Source: Desulfovirgula sp. (GTDB lineage Bacteria; Bacillota; Desulfotomaculia; Desulfotomaculales; Nap2-2B). Taken from it: a stretch of DNA of 33,037 nucleotides. The notes under the pieces are model-generated. The model ran no database searches and was not told the DNA's origin. It was given only the letters and a program-made list of their open reading frames with translations. Every line of letters starts with the position of its first letter. Position 1 is the stretch's first letter. Position numbers and translations under genes: made by a program. The DNA is taken from assembly GCA_020725585.1 (NCBI GenBank), contig DYES01000044.1:1-33037 (forward strand), read 5' to 3'. Below, in pieces: positions 3,949 through 20,995 of this stretch.

Positions 3949-4829
3949 TCAATTTCTTCCCCCTTTAAAATTTTTTCCAGTTGGGCAGCCTGCCCGCGAT
4001 CGATACTCCCCTTCTCGCAAGCTACACCCACGGTATACAAGCCCAGGGTACGGTAAAGGTTCAGCTCCCTCTCGCCGACCTGTTTTAAAGCCGGCAGGTG
4101 ATCCTGAATGGTAGCGCCGTCACCCCTGGAGATGGGCCCGGTGAGGGCTTGCACCGGGCCCACCCGGCGCACGTTATTGATTGTACCCTGAACCAGGGGA
4201 AACAGCGCCCGGAAGGCTTCCTCCCGGGACAGGCCAAAATGCTGGTAAAGGCCGGTGGCCAAGTGGAGCAAAGAAACCAGGTAATTGGAAGCGATGCAGG
4301 CCGCCGCGTGATAGAGCGGTTTGTCCTGCGCACCGATCGTAAACGCCTTCCCCCCTAAATCAAGAACCACCTGCCTGGCCAGGGGAAGAGCCCGTTCATC
4401 TCCTTCCAGCGCAAAGTAAGATCCGGGCAAATTTTTTATGGCGCCTTCCACATCGGCAAAGGATTGCAGAGGGTGAATGGATACCCCCAGCGCACCTGCC
4501 TCTTTCACGCCGCGCAGCTCGCCGGCTGCGTGCGCCCCGCTGGTGTGCGCCACCACCTGGCCGGAAAAAAAGCCCCCCTCCTGGGCGATCCTTTCCGCCG
4601 TCCGGGCAATCTCCCGGTCCGGCGTGGTGATGAAAACAAGCCCGGCCCGCCGGGTAAGTTCAGAAGCGTTTTCGTACGCCGGGCACCGCAAAGCTTCGGC
4701 CAGTGCTTGAGCTGAACGCAGGCTGCGGCTGGCCACCCCGGCCACCGGATAACCTTTTTTCTGCAGTAAAATGGCCAGCGCCGAGCCGACTTTGCCGGCC
4801 CCGACAATGGCAAGGGCAGGTTTTTGCAC
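3945..4829 (-). CDS. Rossmann-like/DUF2520 dehydrogenase; candidate ketopantoate reductase (PanG-like)
   Basis: N-terminal ALAIVGAGKVGSALAILLQKKGY Rossmann motif, VVAHTSGAHAAGEL and SIHPLQSF motifs typical of DUF2520 proteins; first gene of panBCD operon with ATGA overlap to panB. Confidence 0.85.
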   Translation of the reverse strand: MQKPALAIVGAGKVGSALAILLQKKGYPVAGVASRSLRSAQALAEALRCPAYENASELTRRAGLVFITTPDREIARTAERIAQEGGFFSGQVVAHTSGAHAAGELRGVKEAGALGVSIHPLQSFADVEGAIKNLPGSYFALEGDERALPLARQVVLDLGGKAFTIGAQDKPLYHAAACIASNYLVSLLHLATGLYQHFGLSREEAFRALFPLVQGTINNVRRVGPVQALTGPISRGDGATIQDHLPALKQVGERELNLYRTLGLYTVGVACEKGSIDRGQAAQLEKILKGEEIE

Positions 4830-8803: not shown

Positions 8804-9433
8804 ATGGATATGCAACAGGCTATGTTAGAAACTCCTAAGGGAAAAGTGTATATCGAAGGCCCCGCTTCGGGAGCCTACCTGGAAACGTTGACCATGAACA
8901 AGCTTTTATGCAACTTCCGTCCGCCCGACCGCCAACAGCAGGCCCTCATTAAAATCACCACTTTGCCTGACGGGATGATTTACCTGGCCCGCCACCAGCA
9001 GGAAATCGTCGCTTACGTCGCCTTTCACCGGCCGGACGATTATTCCCGCTGGAGCAAGCATCCCCGGATTTTAGAAATGGGGGGCATCGAAGTCAGTCCC
9101 GAGTGGCGGCAATGCCGACTGGCGGAGAATTTGCTGAAGCTGGCTTTTGCCAACGAACGGCTGGAAGATTTTATTGTCATCACCACAGAATACTGCTGGC
9201 ACTGGGATCTGAAAAATACGGGCCTGGGCCTGTGGGCCTACCAGCAAGTGCTCACCAAGTTATTCGGGAAGGTAGGCTTAAAAAAAGTAACCACCGACGA
9301 TCCCGATATTCTTGAGCACCCGGCTAACGTTTTAATGGCCAGGTTCGGCAAGAACGTCAGCAAAGAGGACCTCGAACTTTTTGAAAAAATGAGGTTTATG
9401 GGCAAGTACAACCAGGCGGCTAATCTTTTTTAA
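8804..9433 (+). CDS. acuA: AcuA-like GNAT protein acetyltransferase
   Basis: FRPPDRQQQALIKITTLPDGMIYLARH, YSRWSKHPRILEMGGIEVSPEWR, FIVITTEYCWHWDLKN, HPANVLMARFGKNVS match the remembered B. subtilis AcuA pattern; ATG at 8804 preceded by AAGGTGAG RBS. Confidence 0.9.
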   Translation: MDMQQAMLETPKGKVYIEGPASGAYLETLTMNKLLCNFRPPDRQQQALIKITTLPDGMIYLARHQQEIVAYVAFHRPDDYSRWSKHPRILEMGGIEVSPEWRQCRLAENLLKLAFANERLEDFIVITTEYCWHWDLKNTGLGLWAYQQVLTKLFGKVGLKKVTTDDPDILEHPANVLMARFGKNVSKEDLELFEKMRFMGKYNQAANLF

Positions 9434-10031
9434 AGAGCGGGCGCACAAGATAATCGGCAAAAAACTCCGCGATTTCTTCCCTGTTCATACTCCCTTTTTC
9501 AGAATACCACCGTGGTATCCAGTTCATCGCCCCCATAATGATAAATACGGCCATCTTGCTCGCCAGCGGGCGAAAGACCCCTTTTTCTATCCCTTCGTCC
9601 ACCAGCTGGCGGAAATACCTCTCGTACCGGTCGCGTTTCGCCACGATAATCTGGCGGTAATTATCCTCCAGCTCAAATTCCTGCCCGAGAGCGACGGTCA
9701 CCAAAGACATCTCGCCTACGACCATTTCAATGTGGGCCTTAATTCCTTCTTTTAACTTAACCTCCACCGGCCAGTCCGCAGCCATGATTTCCTGCATGCG
9801 GTTAATCAACATATCCATGGCCAATTCGTGGCACTGAAAAAGGAGCTCCTGCTTGCTGTTTATATAGTAATAAATAGATCCCTTGGTATATTTGAGATTC
9901 CTGGCGATATCCTCCAGGGTGGCGTCATGGTAACCCTTTTCGCTGAACAGTTTGGCGGCCACTTTGATTATATTCATTTTCCTTTCTGCCGCTCTTTCCT
10001 CGCGAAAGCTCAACACCGGCACCTCCCTCAA
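9420..10031 (-). CDS. TetR/AcrR family transcriptional regulator
   Basis: N-terminal HTH: IIKVAAKLFSEKGYHDATLEDIARNLKYTKGSIYYYINSKQELL; C-terminal ligand domain. Confidence 0.92.
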   Translation of the reverse strand: MREVPVLSFREERAAERKMNIIKVAAKLFSEKGYHDATLEDIARNLKYTKGSIYYYINSKQELLFQCHELAMDMLINRMQEIMAADWPVEVKLKEGIKAHIEMVVGEMSLVTVALGQEFELEDNYRQIIVAKRDRYERYFRQLVDEGIEKGVFRPLASKMAVFIIMGAMNWIPRWYSEKGSMNREEIAEFFADYLVRPLFKKD

Positions 10032-10234
10032 AATTGAGATAATGAAAAATAAAATAATTAAATATAATAAATAACCTCTAACAATAGCCCTTTAGTGACA
10101 CTATTAATACTCTATATTACTCTTAAAACACGGCAATTCCTTTTTTGTTTAAAAAATAACTTAGAATTAAAAGTTTAACCCTTGCCTAAAGATGTCTTTA
10201 GTTTTCACATGACCATTGAAAAATAAATATGGCT

Positions 10235-10273
10235 AAAAAAACAAAAATGCCCGGTGATTGTTTTACCGGGCAT
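10235..10273 (-). terminator. Rho-independent terminator after rpsU
   Basis: Minus strand ATGCCCGGT-AAAACAATC-ACCGGGCAT followed by TTTTGTTTTTTT. Confidence 0.85.
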
Positions 10274-10282
10274 GACCTGCTC

Positions 10283-10459
10283 TTAGCGATATTTGCGCCG
10301 GCGAGCCGCCTGGGCTTTTTTCTTGCGCCGGACACTCGGTTTCTCGTAACGCTCGTGTCTTCTCGCTTCAGCCAAAACGCCTGCTTTTTGGCAGCTGCGC
10401 TTAAAACGACGGAGGGCGCTGTCCAGTGTTTCATTTTTTCCAACCCGTACCTCTGCCAT
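10283..10459 (-). CDS. rpsU: 30S ribosomal protein S21 (58 aa, below ORF-track cut-off)
   Basis: Manual translation: [58 protein letters not shown]; typical S21; [14 protein letters not shown]. Confidence 0.96.
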
Positions 10460-10933: not shown

Positions 10934-12268
10934 TTAAAAATTTTCTTCCCGCGCCTTTTCCACCAGGGTGCCTTTTAAGACCGTGCCGCAAAGCTCCGCC
11001 ACCTGAACCTTCACCAGTTCTGCGCGCAGATCAAGGGCAGCCGGAAAGGCAACGCGCAGGTAATGGCCGGTCAACCCTTCGTAGCATCCGGGAAATTCCC
11101 GGGAGGGCTCTTCAGCCAGCACTTCTACCTGCCGGCCCAAAAAACGCGCGGCGAAGGCGCCGGCCAGCGCCTCGCCCAGGGCAATCATCCGCCTGCTGCG
11201 CTCCTCCTTAACCGGTGCAGGAACCTGGTTCGGCATCTTTGCCGCGGGCGTGCCCTTGCGTGGGGAATACTTAAACACGTGCAGCCTGGAAAAGGCCATT
11301 TCTTGAACAAAAAGGTAAGTGCTGGCAAACTGCTCTTCGGTCTCCCCGGGAAAACCGACCAGGACATCGGTGGTAATGGCCACCTCCGGGATATTCCGGC
11401 GGATTGTCGCGATTAGCTCGCGAAAATATTCGGCCGTGTAATGCCGGTTCATTTTTTGCAACACCGTATTGTCTGCGCTCTGCAGGGGAATGTGCAGGTG
11501 GCGGCAGATCTTCTCTTGGGCGGCGACGACGGCAATCAAGGAGGGGGTGAAGTCCAGGGGCTCCACCGAACTGAGCCGCAGGCGGACCAGGCCGGGCAGT
11601 TTGACCAGGGAAACAAGCAGCCTCGCCAGGTCTATTTCCTCCGGCAGGTCGCGGCCGTAAGCGCCCGTCTGGATGCCCGTAACCACGATCTCCTTGTAGC
11701 CGGCCGCGATTAAACACCTGGCTTCCGCCAGAATATTCTCCGGGCGCCTGCTTTTGAGCGGCCCCCGCGCGTAAGGCACGATGCAGTAAGTACAGTAGTT
11801 GCTGCAGCCTTCCTGGATCTTTAAAAAAGCCCGCACGCGTTCGCCCAAAGCCGGTGCAGGCAATTCTTCGAACTCTTTTGCCGCGCAAGCATCCTGAACA
11901 GCCACCCGGGGGCCGTTTCGCCCGCCCGCCGATTCAATTAAATCAACAATGCGCCCTTTTTCCCGCGTACCCAACACCAGGTCAACCCCGGGAACGGCCG
12001 CCACTTCCTCGGGGGAAACCTGCGCGTAACAACCCGTCACCACGATCAAGGCGTCCGGGTTGTTTTTCGCCGCCCGGCGGATCAGCTGGCGGGATTTGCG
12101 GTCCCCAATGTGCGTAACCGTACAGGTATTGATTATGTAGATGTCAGCCGGCTCGGCAAAATCAACTACCTGGTAGCCCCGGCGGGAAAAAAGGCTGGCC
12201 AAGGCCGCCGAGTCGTACTGATTTACCTTGCAGCCGAGGGTGGCGATGGCTACCTTTTTTATGTTCAT
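10934..12268 (-). CDS. mtaB: tRNA (t6A37) methylthiotransferase MtaB
   Basis: VAIATLGCKVNQYDSAALASLF, INTCTVTHIGDRKSRQ, GCSNYCTYCIVPYARG radical-SAM motif, HLHIPLQSADNTVLQKMNRHYTAEYF. Confidence 0.95.
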   Translation of the reverse strand: MNIKKVAIATLGCKVNQYDSAALASLFSRRGYQVVDFAEPADIYIINTCTVTHIGDRKSRQLIRRAAKNNPDALIVVTGCYAQVSPEEVAAVPGVDLVLGTREKGRIVDLIESAGGRNGPRVAVQDACAAKEFEELPAPALGERVRAFLKIQEGCSNYCTYCIVPYARGPLKSRRPENILAEARCLIAAGYKEIVVTGIQTGAYGRDLPEEIDLARLLVSLVKLPGLVRLRLSSVEPLDFTPSLIAVVAAQEKICRHLHIPLQSADNTVLQKMNRHYTAEYFRELIATIRRNIPEVAITTDVLVGFPGETEEQFASTYLFVQEMAFSRLHVFKYSPRKGTPAAKMPNQVPAPVKEERSRRMIALGEALAGAFAARFLGRQVEVLAEEPSREFPGCYEGLTGHYLRVAFPAALDLRAELVKVQVAELCGTVLKGTLVEKAREENF

Positions 12269-13023
12269 CCCCCCAGATCGCCAAGTTCGTACAAGATCAT
12301 GGCCACCGCCGCGATGGCCGCCGTTTCCGTCCGCAGGATGCGCCTGCCCAGCGAAACCGCCGCCACACGGCGGCTTTTCGCCAGCTCTACTTCTTCTCTC
12401 GCCAACCCGCCTTCCGGGCCGATAAAAAGAAAAATTTTATCCGGAATTTTTTCCCGGCTTCCTTCTTTCGATATTTTTAACACTTGCCTTAGGGAAATCG
12501 CGCCTTCCTCTTCCCAGGGCATTATTCCGAGGGCGTCAGGGGGCATGGCGGCAAAAACCTCTTTTAAAGACATGGGGACACTCACTCCGGGCACTTCTCC
12601 CCGTTGGCATTGCTTGGCCGCCTCGTAGGCCACCCGCCGCCAGCGGAGGACGCGCTGCTGCAATTTCTCGCCCGAAAGCCTTACCACCGCTCTGTTCGCG
12701 GTCCAAGGGATGATTTCTTTCACGCCTAGTTCGGTGCATTTCTGGATGATCATTTCCATTTTTTCACCTTTGGGGATCCCCTGAACGAGCGTGATCCGCG
12801 CCGCGGGCTCCGCATTGATGATAAATTCTTCTTCGATCGCCCCTTCTACTTCTGCACCGATTCTATCTAACCTGACCCGGTAGCCTTTGCCCTGCCCGTC
12901 CGCGACAATTAACCCGTCCCCCGGCCGCAGCCGCAAAACGCGGGTGATGTGCGCAGCATCAGGACCAGTGATCGTTACTTTTTGCTTTTTAATTTGCTTC
13001 GGCGAAACAAAAAAATACGTCAT
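12265..13023 (-). CDS. rsmE: 16S rRNA (uracil(1498)-N(3))-methyltransferase
   Basis: ITGPDAAHITRVLRLRPGD, LVQGIPKGEKMEMIIQKCTELGV, FIGPEGGLAREEVELA, SLGRRILRTETAAIAAVAMI. Confidence 0.95.
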   Translation of the reverse strand: MTYFFVSPKQIKKQKVTITGPDAAHITRVLRLRPGDGLIVADGQGKGYRVRLDRIGAEVEGAIEEEFIINAEPAARITLVQGIPKGEKMEMIIQKCTELGVKEIIPWTANRAVVRLSGEKLQQRVLRWRRVAYEAAKQCQRGEVPGVSVPMSLKEVFAAMPPDALGIMPWEEEGAISLRQVLKISKEGSREKIPDKIFLFIGPEGGLAREEVELAKSRRVAAVSLGRRILRTETAAIAAVAMILYELGDLGG

Positions 13024-13024
13024 C

Positions 13025-14167
<1,143 letters not shown>

Positions 14168-14189: not shown

Positions 14190-16014
<1,825 letters not shown>

Positions 16015-16022
<8 letters not shown>

Positions 16023-16749
16023 TTACCCTTTCACCCTCCTGAACTTCTTTTTGTTTAGCGCGTCCCACTTTAACCATGGCCGGTCGAATAACCTTATCCT
16101 TTAAATAATATCCCTTGCGTAATTCTTCTACAATAATATTATCATTGCCCGCTTCCTCTGTTTCCTCCCAGGCGACGGCCTCGTGCCGGGAGGGATCAAA
16201 CTTTTCGCCTAAAGCGGGAATGGGCGCAAGCCCCTGGGCTTTAAGCAGATGACAAAGCTGCCTGTAAATCATCTCCACCCCTTCGTAAAAGGCATCCGCG
16301 TTTTCCCGCCCGAAAGAAAGCGCCCGTTCAAAGTTATCCAGCACCGGAAGCAATTGCGTGATTAATTCTTCCGCGGCAAACTTGAGCAATTCCTCCCTTT
16401 CCCGGAGGGCACGTTTCCGGTAATTATCAAAATCTGCCTGGAGCCGGACGAGGCGGTGGAAATATTCCTGCGCCTGGGCGGTAGCCTCCGCCAGCTGGCG
16501 TTTAAGCTCTTCAACGTCTGCTTCCGGTTCGGGAGCCGCCTTTTGTTCGGCTTGCGGCTCCGTTTGTTCCGCTTCTTTCTGATCCCGTTCTATTTTCTCC
16601 GTTTCGGAAGGAGCATCCGGGGGATTCTCCCCCGGGAGTTCGCTATTTTGCTGGCGCTGCGTCTTTTCCTCCTCCGGCTGGACAGCAACGATTTTTTCCT
16701 TCAAGTTTTCTTTGACGGTTTGTTTTTCTTGTTCCAGATGGCTACCCAT
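16015..16749 (-). CDS. grpE: nucleotide exchange factor GrpE
   Basis: [43 protein letters not shown]..., coiled-coil N-terminus; start trimmed to MGSHLEQEK (RBS AGGTGAAGGGG). Confidence 0.95.
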
Positions 16750-16795
16750 CCCCTTCACCTCACAACAGTTATTCTTCCCCGTTTGGCCCTTGTGA

Positions 16796-18373
16796 TTAAG
16801 TTTTTGCCTCAACCTCTCTTCCTTCGCCTACTTTTTCTTCCTTTTTCTTAATAATTGTATCTATCCTTAAAATGGCTTCCGCCACTTCTCCCGCTGCTTT
16901 AAAGGCGTAGCTTTTGACCAGGAGGGGATCGATTACGCCCGCCTGGTACATATCGCAAACCTCGCCCGTATCGCAGTCGATGGCCAGAGCGTCGTTGCCA
17001 GCCTGTACCTGGGCCGCGATCACGTCGCCCACCTTCTCCAGGGGGTTAAAACCCGCGTTGGCCACAATTTGCGCCAGGGGGCGCCTGAGTGCCTCCACGA
17101 CGCAATCCACCCCGTAAGCGGCCATGCCGCGCACCCCGGCGCGCAGCTTTTCCACTTCGCGGGCCACGGCAATCTCCAGGGCGCCGCCGCCGGGCACGAC
17201 GCCCCCCTTAATCGCGGCCTGGACGGCCGCGGCTGCGTCCCTGGCGATCCGCTCCCGCTCGCCGACCACTTCCCGGGTGGCCGCGCCGACGACAAGCGTT
17301 GCCATGGGCTTCCCGGCCCCCTCGCAGATCCAGACCTGCTCCAGTTTTTCGTCGTTAAAAACGCGGCGCGCCCGCCCCAAATACTGCTCGAGCTGGGCGG
17401 GATCTTTTTTCAAACCCGTGCGCTTGATCATGCGTGCGCCTACATGCTCGGCGGCCTTGCGCAGCTCCCGCGCCCGCACCCGCTGCACCACCATCACGCC
17501 CGCGTCGGTGAGCATTTCTTCGGCAAGATCGTCTACGCCCCGGTCAACCAGTACCAGCCCCACCCGCAGCTCGATTATTTTCCGGACATTTTCCCGAAAC
17601 TGGTTCTGCAGTTCCAGGTAGCGCGCAAAACCGGACTCGGTGGAAAGGGCTTCGTCTTCTATTTCTTCCGGCTCCAGAGCGTCGTCAATAACCAGCACTT
17701 GCACATTTTCCAGCTCGCGGGGCATCTGGCGGTTAAGGCGCTCCTTGGTGATGATCACTCCCGATAAAACCTGGTTTTCGGCCCCTTCCTGGGCGACGAC
17801 AATATCCGCAAATTTAAAGGAAGGATCGCTGAGTTTTTCCCTGCCGATCAGGCGCGCCGCCTGCACCACCAGGTCCGCTATATCCTCGTGGCCCCGGCCG
17901 GCGACCAGGGCGACCTGGCGAACGGCGGGATCGTCCAAACCCGCCACGGGGCGGGACTTTTCCTTCATCAACGCCAGCCCCTTTTTTAGGCCGGCCCGCA
18001 GCCCCTCAATAACCCTGGCCACGGGCACTCCGCGGGAAACCAGCTCCACGCCCGCGCCGACCATCGCTCCCGCCATGACGGCGGCCGTCGTGGTCCCGTC
18101 GCCCACTTCCTCCTGCTGGGCCTTCGCGATATTAATCAACATCCTGGCCGCCGGGTGGTTGGCTTCCATTTGGGTCAAAATGGTGACGCCGTCGTTGGTA
18201 ATGATCACCTCGCCAAATTTATCCACCAGCATGGTATCCAGACCCTTGGGCCCCAACGTGTTCTCTACCGCCGAGGCAATGGCCCGGATGGCGTTTGCGT
18301 TGCTCACCAGGGCGGCCAGCCGCTCGTTAACCTCTGCGCCGCCGCTCGCCTGCTGTTTGAGGGTCAAATTCAA
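16796..18373 (-). CDS. group II/III (thermosome/TCP-1-like) chaperonin
   Basis: NTLGPKGLDTMLVDKFGEVIITNDGVTILTQMEANHPAARMLINIAKAQQEEVGDGTTTAAVMAG, GVVPGGGALEIAVA, IDPLLVKSYAFKAAGEVAEAILRIDTII: thermosome-type rather than GroEL-type sequence; start overlaps hrcA stop. Confidence 0.93.
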   Translation of the reverse strand: MNLTLKQQASGGAEVNERLAALVSNANAIRAIASAVENTLGPKGLDTMLVDKFGEVIITNDGVTILTQMEANHPAARMLINIAKAQQEEVGDGTTTAAVMAGAMVGAGVELVSRGVPVARVIEGLRAGLKKGLALMKEKSRPVAGLDDPAVRQVALVAGRGHEDIADLVVQAARLIGREKLSDPSFKFADIVVAQEGAENQVLSGVIITKERLNRQMPRELENVQVLVIDDALEPEEIEDEALSTESGFARYLELQNQFRENVRKIIELRVGLVLVDRGVDDLAEEMLTDAGVMVVQRVRARELRKAAEHVGARMIKRTGLKKDPAQLEQYLGRARRVFNDEKLEQVWICEGAGKPMATLVVGAATREVVGERERIARDAAAAVQAAIKGGVVPGGGALEIAVAREVEKLRAGVRGMAAYGVDCVVEALRRPLAQIVANAGFNPLEKVGDVIAAQVQAGNDALAIDCDTGEVCDMYQAGVIDPLLVKSYAFKAAGEVAEAILRIDTIIKKKEEKVGEGREVEAKT

Positions 18374-19413
18374 CGACCTCCACCTTTAAATAAGCGTTCT
18401 AAAGCGTAGGATAGATTTTTCGTCATGCAGTCAACGACGCTGATTACCTTTGCGTAATCCATCCGAATGGGGCCCAACACCCCCAGGTAACCAATGGGCT
18501 GGCCCCCGATCTCGTAAGTGGCCGTTACAATGCTGCAGTCTTGAATTTCCCGGCAGCTCATCTCACCGCCGATGCGTACGTTGATACCGGGTTGATTAAT
18601 CTGCGCCAGCAGATTGGCCAGCAGATTTTCTTGTTCCAAAAGGCTTAACAGCGTTTTTACCTTTTCCACGTTATGAAATTCAGGGTGGCTTAAAATATTA
18701 AACAGCCCGCCCAGATAAATCTTATCTTCCGAAACGGAAGCGGAGCTGGATCTCAAAGCTTCCAAGACCATATCCAGGATCTGCCTGTGTCGCGTTAACT
18801 CCAGGTAAATTTCTTTCAGCAAAGTGATTTTAATGGTCTCTACGGTGGAACCGCCCAGCTTGGCGTTAAGCACGTGTGAAATGGTGGTCAGGTCGCTGCC
18901 CGTAATGCTGGTGGGGATGTCGATCATCTGGTGCTGGATCATCCCGCTGTCCATGACGATGACCAGCATGGCGCGACCGGGGCTCATTTCAACTAACTGG
19001 ATGTGCTTGTATGAGCCGACCTCCAGTTTCGGCGACTGCACAACCGACGCACAATGGGTAAGCTGCGACAAGAGCTGGCCGGTGCGCTGGAGAAGGAGGC
19101 CGATGTCGCGCACTTTGCGCGTGTACTCCTGCCTGATCAAATCCTCTTCTTCCGGAGACAGACTATATCTTTGCATCAGATAATCCACGTAATAGCGGTA
19201 ACCGCGCTCGGAGGGGACCCGGCCTGCCGAAGTATGCGGCTGTTCGATGAAGCCCATTTCTTCCAGATCCGCCATCTCGTTGCGAATGGTGGCCGGACTG
19301 ACGCCCAATTTATACTTTCTGGCGATGGTGCGGGAGCCAACCGGCTCCGCGGTGTCGATGTATTCTTTAATAATGGCCAAAAGAATTTGCTGCTGGCGGG
19401 GATTTAACTTCAT
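18370..19413 (-). CDS. hrcA: heat-inducible transcription repressor HrcA
   Basis: LNPRQQQILLAIIKEYIDTAEPVGSRTIARKYKLGVSPATIRNEMADLEEMGFIEQPHTSAGRVPSERGYRYYVD. Confidence 0.98.
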   Translation of the reverse strand: MKLNPRQQQILLAIIKEYIDTAEPVGSRTIARKYKLGVSPATIRNEMADLEEMGFIEQPHTSAGRVPSERGYRYYVDYLMQRYSLSPEEEDLIRQEYTRKVRDIGLLLQRTGQLLSQLTHCASVVQSPKLEVGSYKHIQLVEMSPGRAMLVIVMDSGMIQHQMIDIPTSITGSDLTTISHVLNAKLGGSTVETIKITLLKEIYLELTRHRQILDMVLEALRSSSASVSEDKIYLGGLFNILSHPEFHNVEKVKTLLSLLEQENLLANLLAQINQPGINVRIGGEMSCREIQDCSIVTATYEIGGQPIGYLGVLGPIRMDYAKVISVVDCMTKNLSYALERLFKGGGR

Positions 19414-19431
19414 CCCGCGGCACCTCCTTTG

Positions 19432-19458
19432 TTAGCACTCTCCTCTCTTGAGTGCTAA
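19432..19458 (-). promoter_or_regulatory. CIRCE operator
   Basis: TTAGCACTC-N9-GAGTGCTAA, perfect match to the consensus, between promoter and hrcA start. Confidence 0.98.
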
Positions 19459-19470
19459 CGCCTAAGTTAA

Positions 19471-19499
19471 AACATAGCACTTCCGCCCGTACTTGTCAA
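19471..19499 (-). promoter_or_regulatory. sigma-A promoter of hrcA operon (-35 TTGACA, 17-nt spacer, -10 TATGTT)
   Basis: TTGACA (19494-19499) and TATGTT (19471-19476) on minus strand upstream of CIRCE. Confidence 0.75.
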
Positions 19500-19502
19500 G
19501 GG

Positions 19503-20639
19503 CTACACAAATTCCGCAAAAACCTGGTTGGCCACCGGCAGTCCCTGCCGGGTGAGGCGTAAAAAACGGCCGTTTATCTCAATTAAATTTAGACGCAAGA
19601 GGCGGCTGAGTTGCTCCGGAAAGACTTCCTCCACCGTTTGCCCAAAACGCCCGGCAAAAACATTTAAATCCAGGCCCTGGATTAGACGCAGGCCTAAAAA
19701 AACAGTCTCCGCCATCATCGTTTCCCTGGTCAGTTTTTCCCTTTCAGCAACGGGCAATTCCCCCGCGCCAAGGCGGCGCACATATTTTTTTAAGGAAATT
19801 TCGTTGCTGTACCGGCAGTCGGCGTAAAAAGAATGGGCCGCCGGCCCAAAACCCAGATAGGGCAGGTTATGCCAGTAGCGCAGATTATGCCGGCACTGAC
19901 AGCCGGGCGCGGAAAAATTAGAAATTTCGTAATGCACGTAGCCGCGAGCGGTCAAAATGGCGATGGCCCGCTCAAACATGGCCAGTTCCGTTTCTTCGTC
20001 GCCGGGTTTTCGCTTCCCGGCCTGCACGTCCCGCCACAAAGGAGTATTTTCTTCCAGCTGTAAGCTGTAGGTGGAAACGTGCTCAGGATAAAGGATCAGC
20101 ACCTGCGCGAGGCACTCCACCCAGTCCTTTTCGGTTTGCTCCGGGAGGCCGAAAAGCAGGTCCACGCCTACATTTTGAAAACCTGCTTCTCTTGCCGTCC
20201 TGGCGGCGTCCTTTACCTGCTCGTAAGTATGGACCCGCCCCAGAAGGTCTAGGAGCCTTTGCTGGCAGGCCTGCACGCCGATGCTTAAACGGTTGACGCC
20301 AGCCTGGCGAAGCGCGGCCAGCTTCTCCCTGTCCACCGTGCCCGGGTTGGCTTCGATACTTATTTCCGCCCCCGGCAGCACGCAAAAATAATGCCGGCAA
20401 CTTTTCAAGATGAAGGCCAGTTCCTCTGCCGACAAACAGGTGGGCGTCCCGCCGCCGAAATAGATTGTCTCCACTTCTTTTTCTTCCGGCGGGAGGCGCC
20501 CGCTGGCTAATTCTATTTCCCTCCCCAGAGCGGCGAGATAATCCCGCACGTCGCTTTGTACATAAGGATAAGATACAAAGTCGCAATAATTACATTTTTG
20601 CAGACAAAAGGGTACGTGCACGTACAATCCAAGCGGCAT
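19503..20639 (-). CDS. hemW: radical SAM heme chaperone HemW (coproporphyrinogen III oxidase-like)
   Basis: LYVHVPFCLQKCNYCDFVSY, IYFGGGTPTCLSAEEL, EANPGTVDREKLAALRQAGVNRLSIGVQ, YEISNFSAPG. Confidence 0.95.
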   Translation of the reverse strand: MPLGLYVHVPFCLQKCNYCDFVSYPYVQSDVRDYLAALGREIELASGRLPPEEKEVETIYFGGGTPTCLSAEELAFILKSCRHYFCVLPGAEISIEANPGTVDREKLAALRQAGVNRLSIGVQACQQRLLDLLGRVHTYEQVKDAARTAREAGFQNVGVDLLFGLPEQTEKDWVECLAQVLILYPEHVSTYSLQLEENTPLWRDVQAGKRKPGDEETELAMFERAIAILTARGYVHYEISNFSAPGCQCRHNLRYWHNLPYLGFGPAAHSFYADCRYSNEISLKKYVRRLGAGELPVAEREKLTRETMMAETVFLGLRLIQGLDLNVFAGRFGQTVEEVFPEQLSRLLRLNLIEINGRFLRLTRQGLPVANQVFAEFV

Positions 20640-20695: not shown

Positions 20696-20995
20696 CTACT
20701 GACCGCTCGCCTGTTTTAACAGGTGGCGGGCCACCTTGCCGGTAGCGGTTTTGGGAAGTTCACAAAATTCAATGCGTAAAGGTACATCCATTTTTCGCCT
20801 GCAATGATCGGCCAGGGCCTCTTTTTCCACGGCGCAGCTCCCGTCTAGCTGGACATAGGCGATAAACTCTTTTCTGCCGTCGGGCAGTTCCTCAACCAAT
20901 ACGGCGGTTTCCTCCACGCCGGGAAAATCACTGATCATTCTTTCCATGTCCCGGACCATGATTACATTTTCCAGGTAAACGTCGTTTTCCGTCAT
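20696..20995 (-). CDS. stand-alone AMP-binding enzyme C-terminal domain (acyl-CoA synthetase C-domain)
   Basis: 99 aa: ...ISDFPGVEETAVLVEELPDGRKEFIAYVQLDG...CRRKMDVPLRIEFCELPKTATGKVARHLLK; PKTxTGK motif; strong purine-rich RBS; no upstream adenylation domain in any frame. Confidence 0.88.
   Translation of the reverse strand: MTENDVYLENVIMVRDMERMISDFPGVEETAVLVEELPDGRKEFIAYVQLDGSCAVEKEALADHCRRKMDVPLRIEFCELPKTATGKVARHLLKQASGQ

Follow-up and report, generated by a model that had tools for sequence, protein, structure and literature searches.

A Group III chaperonin in a dnaK operon of Desulfovirgula under probable HrcA/CIRCE control, and an apparently undescribed stand-alone Hsp70 lobe IIB in its relatives

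The minus strand of the window (the whole 33,037-nucleotide stretch of DNA that was analysed) carries hemW, a promoter with a CIRCE operator, hrcA, a chaperonin gene, grpE, dnaK, dnaJ, rsmE and mtaB, in that order. Identification of each gene with Pfam and NCBIfam models bears out the arrangement hrcA-chaperonin-grpE-dnaK-dnaJ proposed in the initial annotation.

19503..20639, minus strand: hemW, conserved upstream neighbour (TIGR00539, 295 bits; neighbourhood tally)
19471..19499, minus strand: sigma-A type promoter, TTGACA-17-TATGTT (10/12 positions, a consensus match only)
19432..19458, no strand assigned: perfect CIRCE operator, TTAGCACTC-N9-GAGTGCTAA (no mismatches; the genome has one other CIRCE)
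18370..19413, minus strand: hrcA, heat-inducible repressor (TIGR00331, 365 bits)
16796..18367, minus strand: Group III chaperonin gene (523 aa from TTG 18367; 525 aa from TTG 18373)
16015..16749, minus strand: grpE, from a likely ATG at 16749 within ORF 16015-16812 (PF01025, 160 bits)
14190..16022, minus strand: dnaK, intact, lobe IIB included from residue 206 (NF001413, 1009 bits)
13025..14143, minus strand: dnaJ (TIGR02349, 486 bits)
12265..13023, minus strand: rsmE-type 16S rRNA methyltransferase, conserved downstream neighbour (Pfam Methyltrans_RNA; neighbourhood tally)
10934..12268, minus strand: mtaB-type methylthiotransferase, conserved downstream neighbour (TIGR01579, 446 bits; neighbourhood tally)

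The chaperonin most probably starts at the second of two TTG codons (18367), giving a 523-residue product that begins 2 nt beyond the hrcA stop. This codon has GGAGG 8 nt upstream, and in alignment the ATG of relatives (MSLKQQAS) falls on it. The two genes are therefore more likely to abut; the overlap first described for them holds only if translation begins at the TTG at 18373. The chaperonin stop lies 46 nt from the likely ATG of grpE, and grpE and dnaK overlap. Farther upstream in the window, a 99-residue ORF on the minus strand (20696-20995) matches AMP-binding enzymes in their C-terminal domain alone and may be a stand-alone domain or a remnant.

The perfect CIRCE and the sigma-A promoter noted earlier upstream of hrcA are both present. 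Matches to CIRCE with three or fewer mismatches have a chance expectation of 0.01. The second promoter hexamer is preceded by TG, and the predicted transcription start point falls just upstream of CIRCE. An operator adjoining a promoter, with hrcA present, is the configuration of an HrcA/CIRCE regulon, and the operon is predicted to be transcribed as a unit and induced by heat through loss of HrcA binding. A search of the genome for groES and groEL, suggested in the initial annotation, located both away from the window, under the only other CIRCE. From the distribution of the two operators, HrcA would control both chaperonins.

The protein encoded between hrcA and grpE-dnaK-dnaJ is confirmed as a Group III ("archaeal-like") chaperonin. 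The Pfam model Cpn60_TCP1 spans its whole length (384 bits), the catalytic aspartates D61, D92 and D379 are conserved, and the GDGTTT ATP loop is present, as are the thermosome-type motifs already quoted in the initial annotation (NTLGPKGLD, TNDGVTIL, VVPGGGA). Its best sequence match in the PDB is a reconstructed ancestral Group III protein (9rwq, 690 bits); the database label of this entry is 'Group II', and it is read here as the ACIII of PMC12696368 from that paper and from its closeness to the window protein. Next comes Ch-CPN (5x9u, 490 bits), with natural archaeal proteins (~243 bits) and CCT (~199) lower. The AlphaFold model (mean pLDDT 87) retrieves through Foldseek the closed (5x9v) and open (5x9u) Group III structures as its best PDB matches, with TM scores of 0.87/0.92. 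These sequence and structure matches support the link to Carboxydothermus 'group III' drawn in the initial annotation (PMC5635000). Relative to thermosomes, the window protein and Ch-CPN share a 6-residue gap at the nucleotide-sensing loop and deletions of 3+1 residues in the lid; the same paper gives the missing loop and the shortened lid as Group III features.

A phylogeny of the kind first proposed for this protein, with 60 rows covering GroEL, archaeal thermosomes and Group III (45 rows), places Group III (80/98) apart from GroEL (100/100) and from archaeal thermosomes (100/100). The window protein lies deep within the Group III clade, its nearest rows supported at 100/99. The neighbouring row (L073, 88% identical) comes from a metagenome-assembled genome recorded as Armatimonadetes, a label that is probably wrong.

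The initial annotation considered such chaperonins rare, occurring in a few Firmicutes. The survey contradicts this: of the genomes sampled, 127 of 398 in the phylum and 88 of 113 in the class carry a Group III chaperonin. Across 100 relatives the chaperonin follows hrcA wherever the contig includes hrcA, and the great majority of the loci read hrcA-chaperonin-grpE. The CIRCE upstream of hrcA is exact in 90 of them and has 1-2 mismatches in 4, the contig end cutting it off in the other 6, and the same gene order is kept down to 44% chaperonin identity. In a second, partly overlapping set, grpE lies directly 3' of the chaperonin in 117 of 119 loci. Because of the constancy of these neighbours, the position is better regarded as old and fixed. 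The position reported earlier stands, and "inserted" is better replaced by words to that effect. Among the near relatives of the window, the family f8 and the genus g268 lack the chaperonin, and seven such loci (L264-L270) have a clean hrcA-grpE-dnaK-dnaJ operon without it; this may reflect clean loss or ancestral absence.

Two further features of the family deserve mention. In two single-contig genomes (G015, locus L053; G341, locus L070) the Group III gene is split across two frames by an apparent frameshift, which may be a sequencing error, decay or recoding. Many Group III proteins, in several lineages, end in an acidic tail with DF or EF at its terminus, a tail absent from the window protein. 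The DF ending was considered as a mark of operons without dnaK and rejected: in the other set, which includes a few duplicate loci of those dnaK-less exceptions, it also closes 37 of the 148 distinct tails.

Group III chaperonins generally coexist with GroEL: a strong GroEL accompanies them in 124 of 127 carriers. In the other three (G260, G312 and G320, all drafts, the last two nearly complete) no GroEL was found. True absence is not favored, since these are drafts and another genome from the genus of G312 encodes two GroELs; contigs are probably missing. A search for prefoldin, the partner of Group II chaperonins, gave no match in the Desulfovirgula genome and three weak matches in the 113 genomes.

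In 15 loci of related Bacillota, grpE and dnaK are missing between the chaperonin and dnaJ (L033, L108, L113, L117, L122, L138, L143 and L200, with L301-L307 added by a class-wide search). The idea that these organisms have no Hsp70 at all was rejected: each of the six genomes checked has a full dnaK at another site, followed by grpE if the contig extends far enough. These copies (L179-L184) are mostly in the order dnaK-grpE. Their DnaKs form their own branch (99), separate from the operon DnaKs, and are 60-65% identical to the DnaK of the window, versus 69-92% for the operon DnaKs. It is likely, from these sequences, that the native DnaK was replaced in these organisms by a foreign or second DnaK.

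In 11 of the 15 loci (L143/L308, L108, L113, L122/L309 and L301-L307), a short ORF of 80-110 residues is flanked by the Group III chaperonin gene on one side and dnaJ on the other. Representative coordinates, each in its own locus, are as follows.

L143, 8629-8955: stand-alone lobe ORF
L122, 1696-1953: stand-alone lobe ORF
L108, 8652-8924: stand-alone lobe ORF
L113, 8664-8912: stand-alone lobe ORF
L301, 4192-4440: stand-alone lobe core, within ORF 4168-4440
L302, 4226-4474: stand-alone lobe core

The core of 75-85 residues comprises helix 8, helix 9 and beta-sheet E, which by the residue ranges given in PMC2940730 make up subdomain IIB in the ATPase domain of Hsp70. In 154 genomes, the Hsp70-type open frames shorter than 200 residues are, among the matches listed, these same 11, all in this slot. 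A model predicted by AlphaFold from four of the sequences has a pLDDT of 87 and superimposes on lobe II of DnaK and on the GrpE-bound DnaK domain with a TM score of ~0.82 and rmsd of 1.5-1.7. Among Pfam and NCBIfam models, none describes the ORF convincingly except those for whole Hsp70/DnaK; no description of a stand-alone lobe IIB was found in the literature searched, and it is apparently undescribed. The window itself has no such ORF beside its intact dnaK. In L108, about 1.4 kb (8924-10370) separates the lobe ORF from dnaJ and holds an opposite-strand ORF that by eye resembles transposon-associated TnpB/OrfB.

The short ORF very probably encodes a real protein under selection. In close pairs dN/dS is 0.12-0.30, with a synonymous excess significant at p values from 2e-3 to 3e-8, which makes a decaying remnant unlikely. 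The residues that in Hsp70 we take to face the adenine are, in our reading of the alignment, largely replaced, which favours docking over catalysis as its role. Subdomain IIB is contacted by every nucleotide exchange factor examined in PMC2940730, among them GrpE. The lobe has persisted at this place, next to the chaperonin and dnaJ, while the remainder of dnaK was lost, and this suggests a partner in the same operon. The lobe might be an adaptor for its operon neighbours, a proposal we put forward tentatively. Equally tentative is its more specific form, in which the lobe would serve the chaperonin (or DnaJ, or a GrpE) as a dedicated adaptor or docking piece; the data suggest that it acts for the chaperonin or for DnaJ independently of catalysis by Hsp70. 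It is not indispensable, as four loci (L117, L138, L033 and L200) pass directly from chaperonin to dnaJ with neither grpE-dnaK nor the lobe.

The reading that best accommodates these observations, to which we assign a probability of roughly 0.93, is that the gene encodes a Group III chaperonin as the second member of an HrcA/CIRCE-controlled hrcA-chaperonin-grpE-dnaK-dnaJ operon and would be co-produced with the Hsp70 proteins once HrcA is inactivated, for example by heat. By homology to Ch-CPN, the chaperonin would form a double ring of 16 subunits closed by its built-in lid, in which ATP hydrolysis would drive the folding of clients without GroES. It would serve as a second chaperonin beside GroEL-GroES and presumably cooperate with DnaK and DnaJ on shared clients. 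A counterpoint is that support for the Group III branch (80/98) is less than full.

Cooperation is the part of this picture that invites an alternative. The chaperonin could simply ride along in a regulatory operon, sharing its control with Hsp70 and not cooperating with it. At least seven relatives (L264-L270) have the same operon minus the chaperonin, so that DnaK can do without it. Conversely, the chaperonin has kept its place with hrcA and dnaJ in the 15 loci that lost grpE-dnaK, so a shared operon with dnaK is dispensable. Against mere co-regulation stand an adjacency that is near-universal across a large divergence and an Hsp70 lobe that remains next to the chaperonin after the departure of dnaK; we consider it the less likely reading.

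Recent acquisition of a Group II thermosome from an archaeon, placed beside hrcA by chance, is far less probable. In its favour, the protein has a lid and an overall fold of the Group II kind, and the highest-scoring NCBIfam models are those for archaeal thermosome beta (310 bits) and alpha (308 bits). These scores fall below the NCBI cut-offs of 400 and 450, however, and a further thermosome model reaches 307 bits against a cut-off of 671, so that none of these three curated thermosome models reaches its cut-off. The match to Ch-CPN is about twice that to archaeal proteins (490 bits versus ~240), the protein nests deep among bacterial homologues, its slot is shared across the phylum, and it lacks the Group II nucleotide-sensing loop. 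That the gene encodes a divergent GroEL paralogue partnered by GroES is highly improbable: the superfamily is the same (PF00118) and a number of genomes of the phylum have more than one GroEL, but the GroEL model TIGR02348 fails (155 bits against a cut-off of 582), GroEL forms a separate clade, a built-in lid is predicted, and no groES adjoins.

The Group III chaperonin gene within the dnaK operon is, in the window, an instance of a published arrangement. The window adds one ordinary member to the group and shows the arrangement to be widespread and fixed in the phylum. Group III chaperonins have been discussed as relics or as ancient transfers between two chaperonin worlds. To account for their position in the Hsp70 operon, an interaction with DnaK has been put forward as a proposal (PMC5635000). 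The relatives whose operon lacks dnaK offer a natural experiment here, and with a conserved stand-alone lobe IIB beside the chaperonin, the link between chaperonin and Hsp70 can be tested directly using three small genes. If the docking proposal is true, lobe IIB would be the face through which Hsp70 communicates with Group III chaperonins.

The closest known system is Ch-CPN of Carboxydothermus hydrogenoformans (5x9u/5x9v). It shares with the window protein the family, the built-in lid, the position in the dnaK operon and the missing nucleotide-sensing loop (PMC5635000); the two are ~49% identical, with otherwise no difference of kind found. The 16-mer double ring with ATP-dependent refolding is known for Ch-CPN only (PMC5635000, PMC12696368). 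Group II chaperonins (archaeal thermosome and eukaryotic CCT) resemble the window protein in overall fold and built-in lid, but form a separate clade, have a longer lid, possess the nucleotide-sensing loop and work with prefoldin, for which this genome gave no match. The Group I pair GroEL-GroES has in common the superfamily, the ATP-site motifs and control by CIRCE; it differs in forming its own clade, in requiring a detachable GroES and in being encoded elsewhere in the genome. The short ORFs of the dnaK-less operons, compared with DnaK and Hsc70, are missing the rest of the ATPase domain and the substrate-binding domain, and the residues presumed to form the adenine pocket are largely replaced. 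In sequence and predicted fold they are nonetheless alike to subdomain IIB of DnaK/Hsc70 (1dkg, 5oow; PMC2940730).
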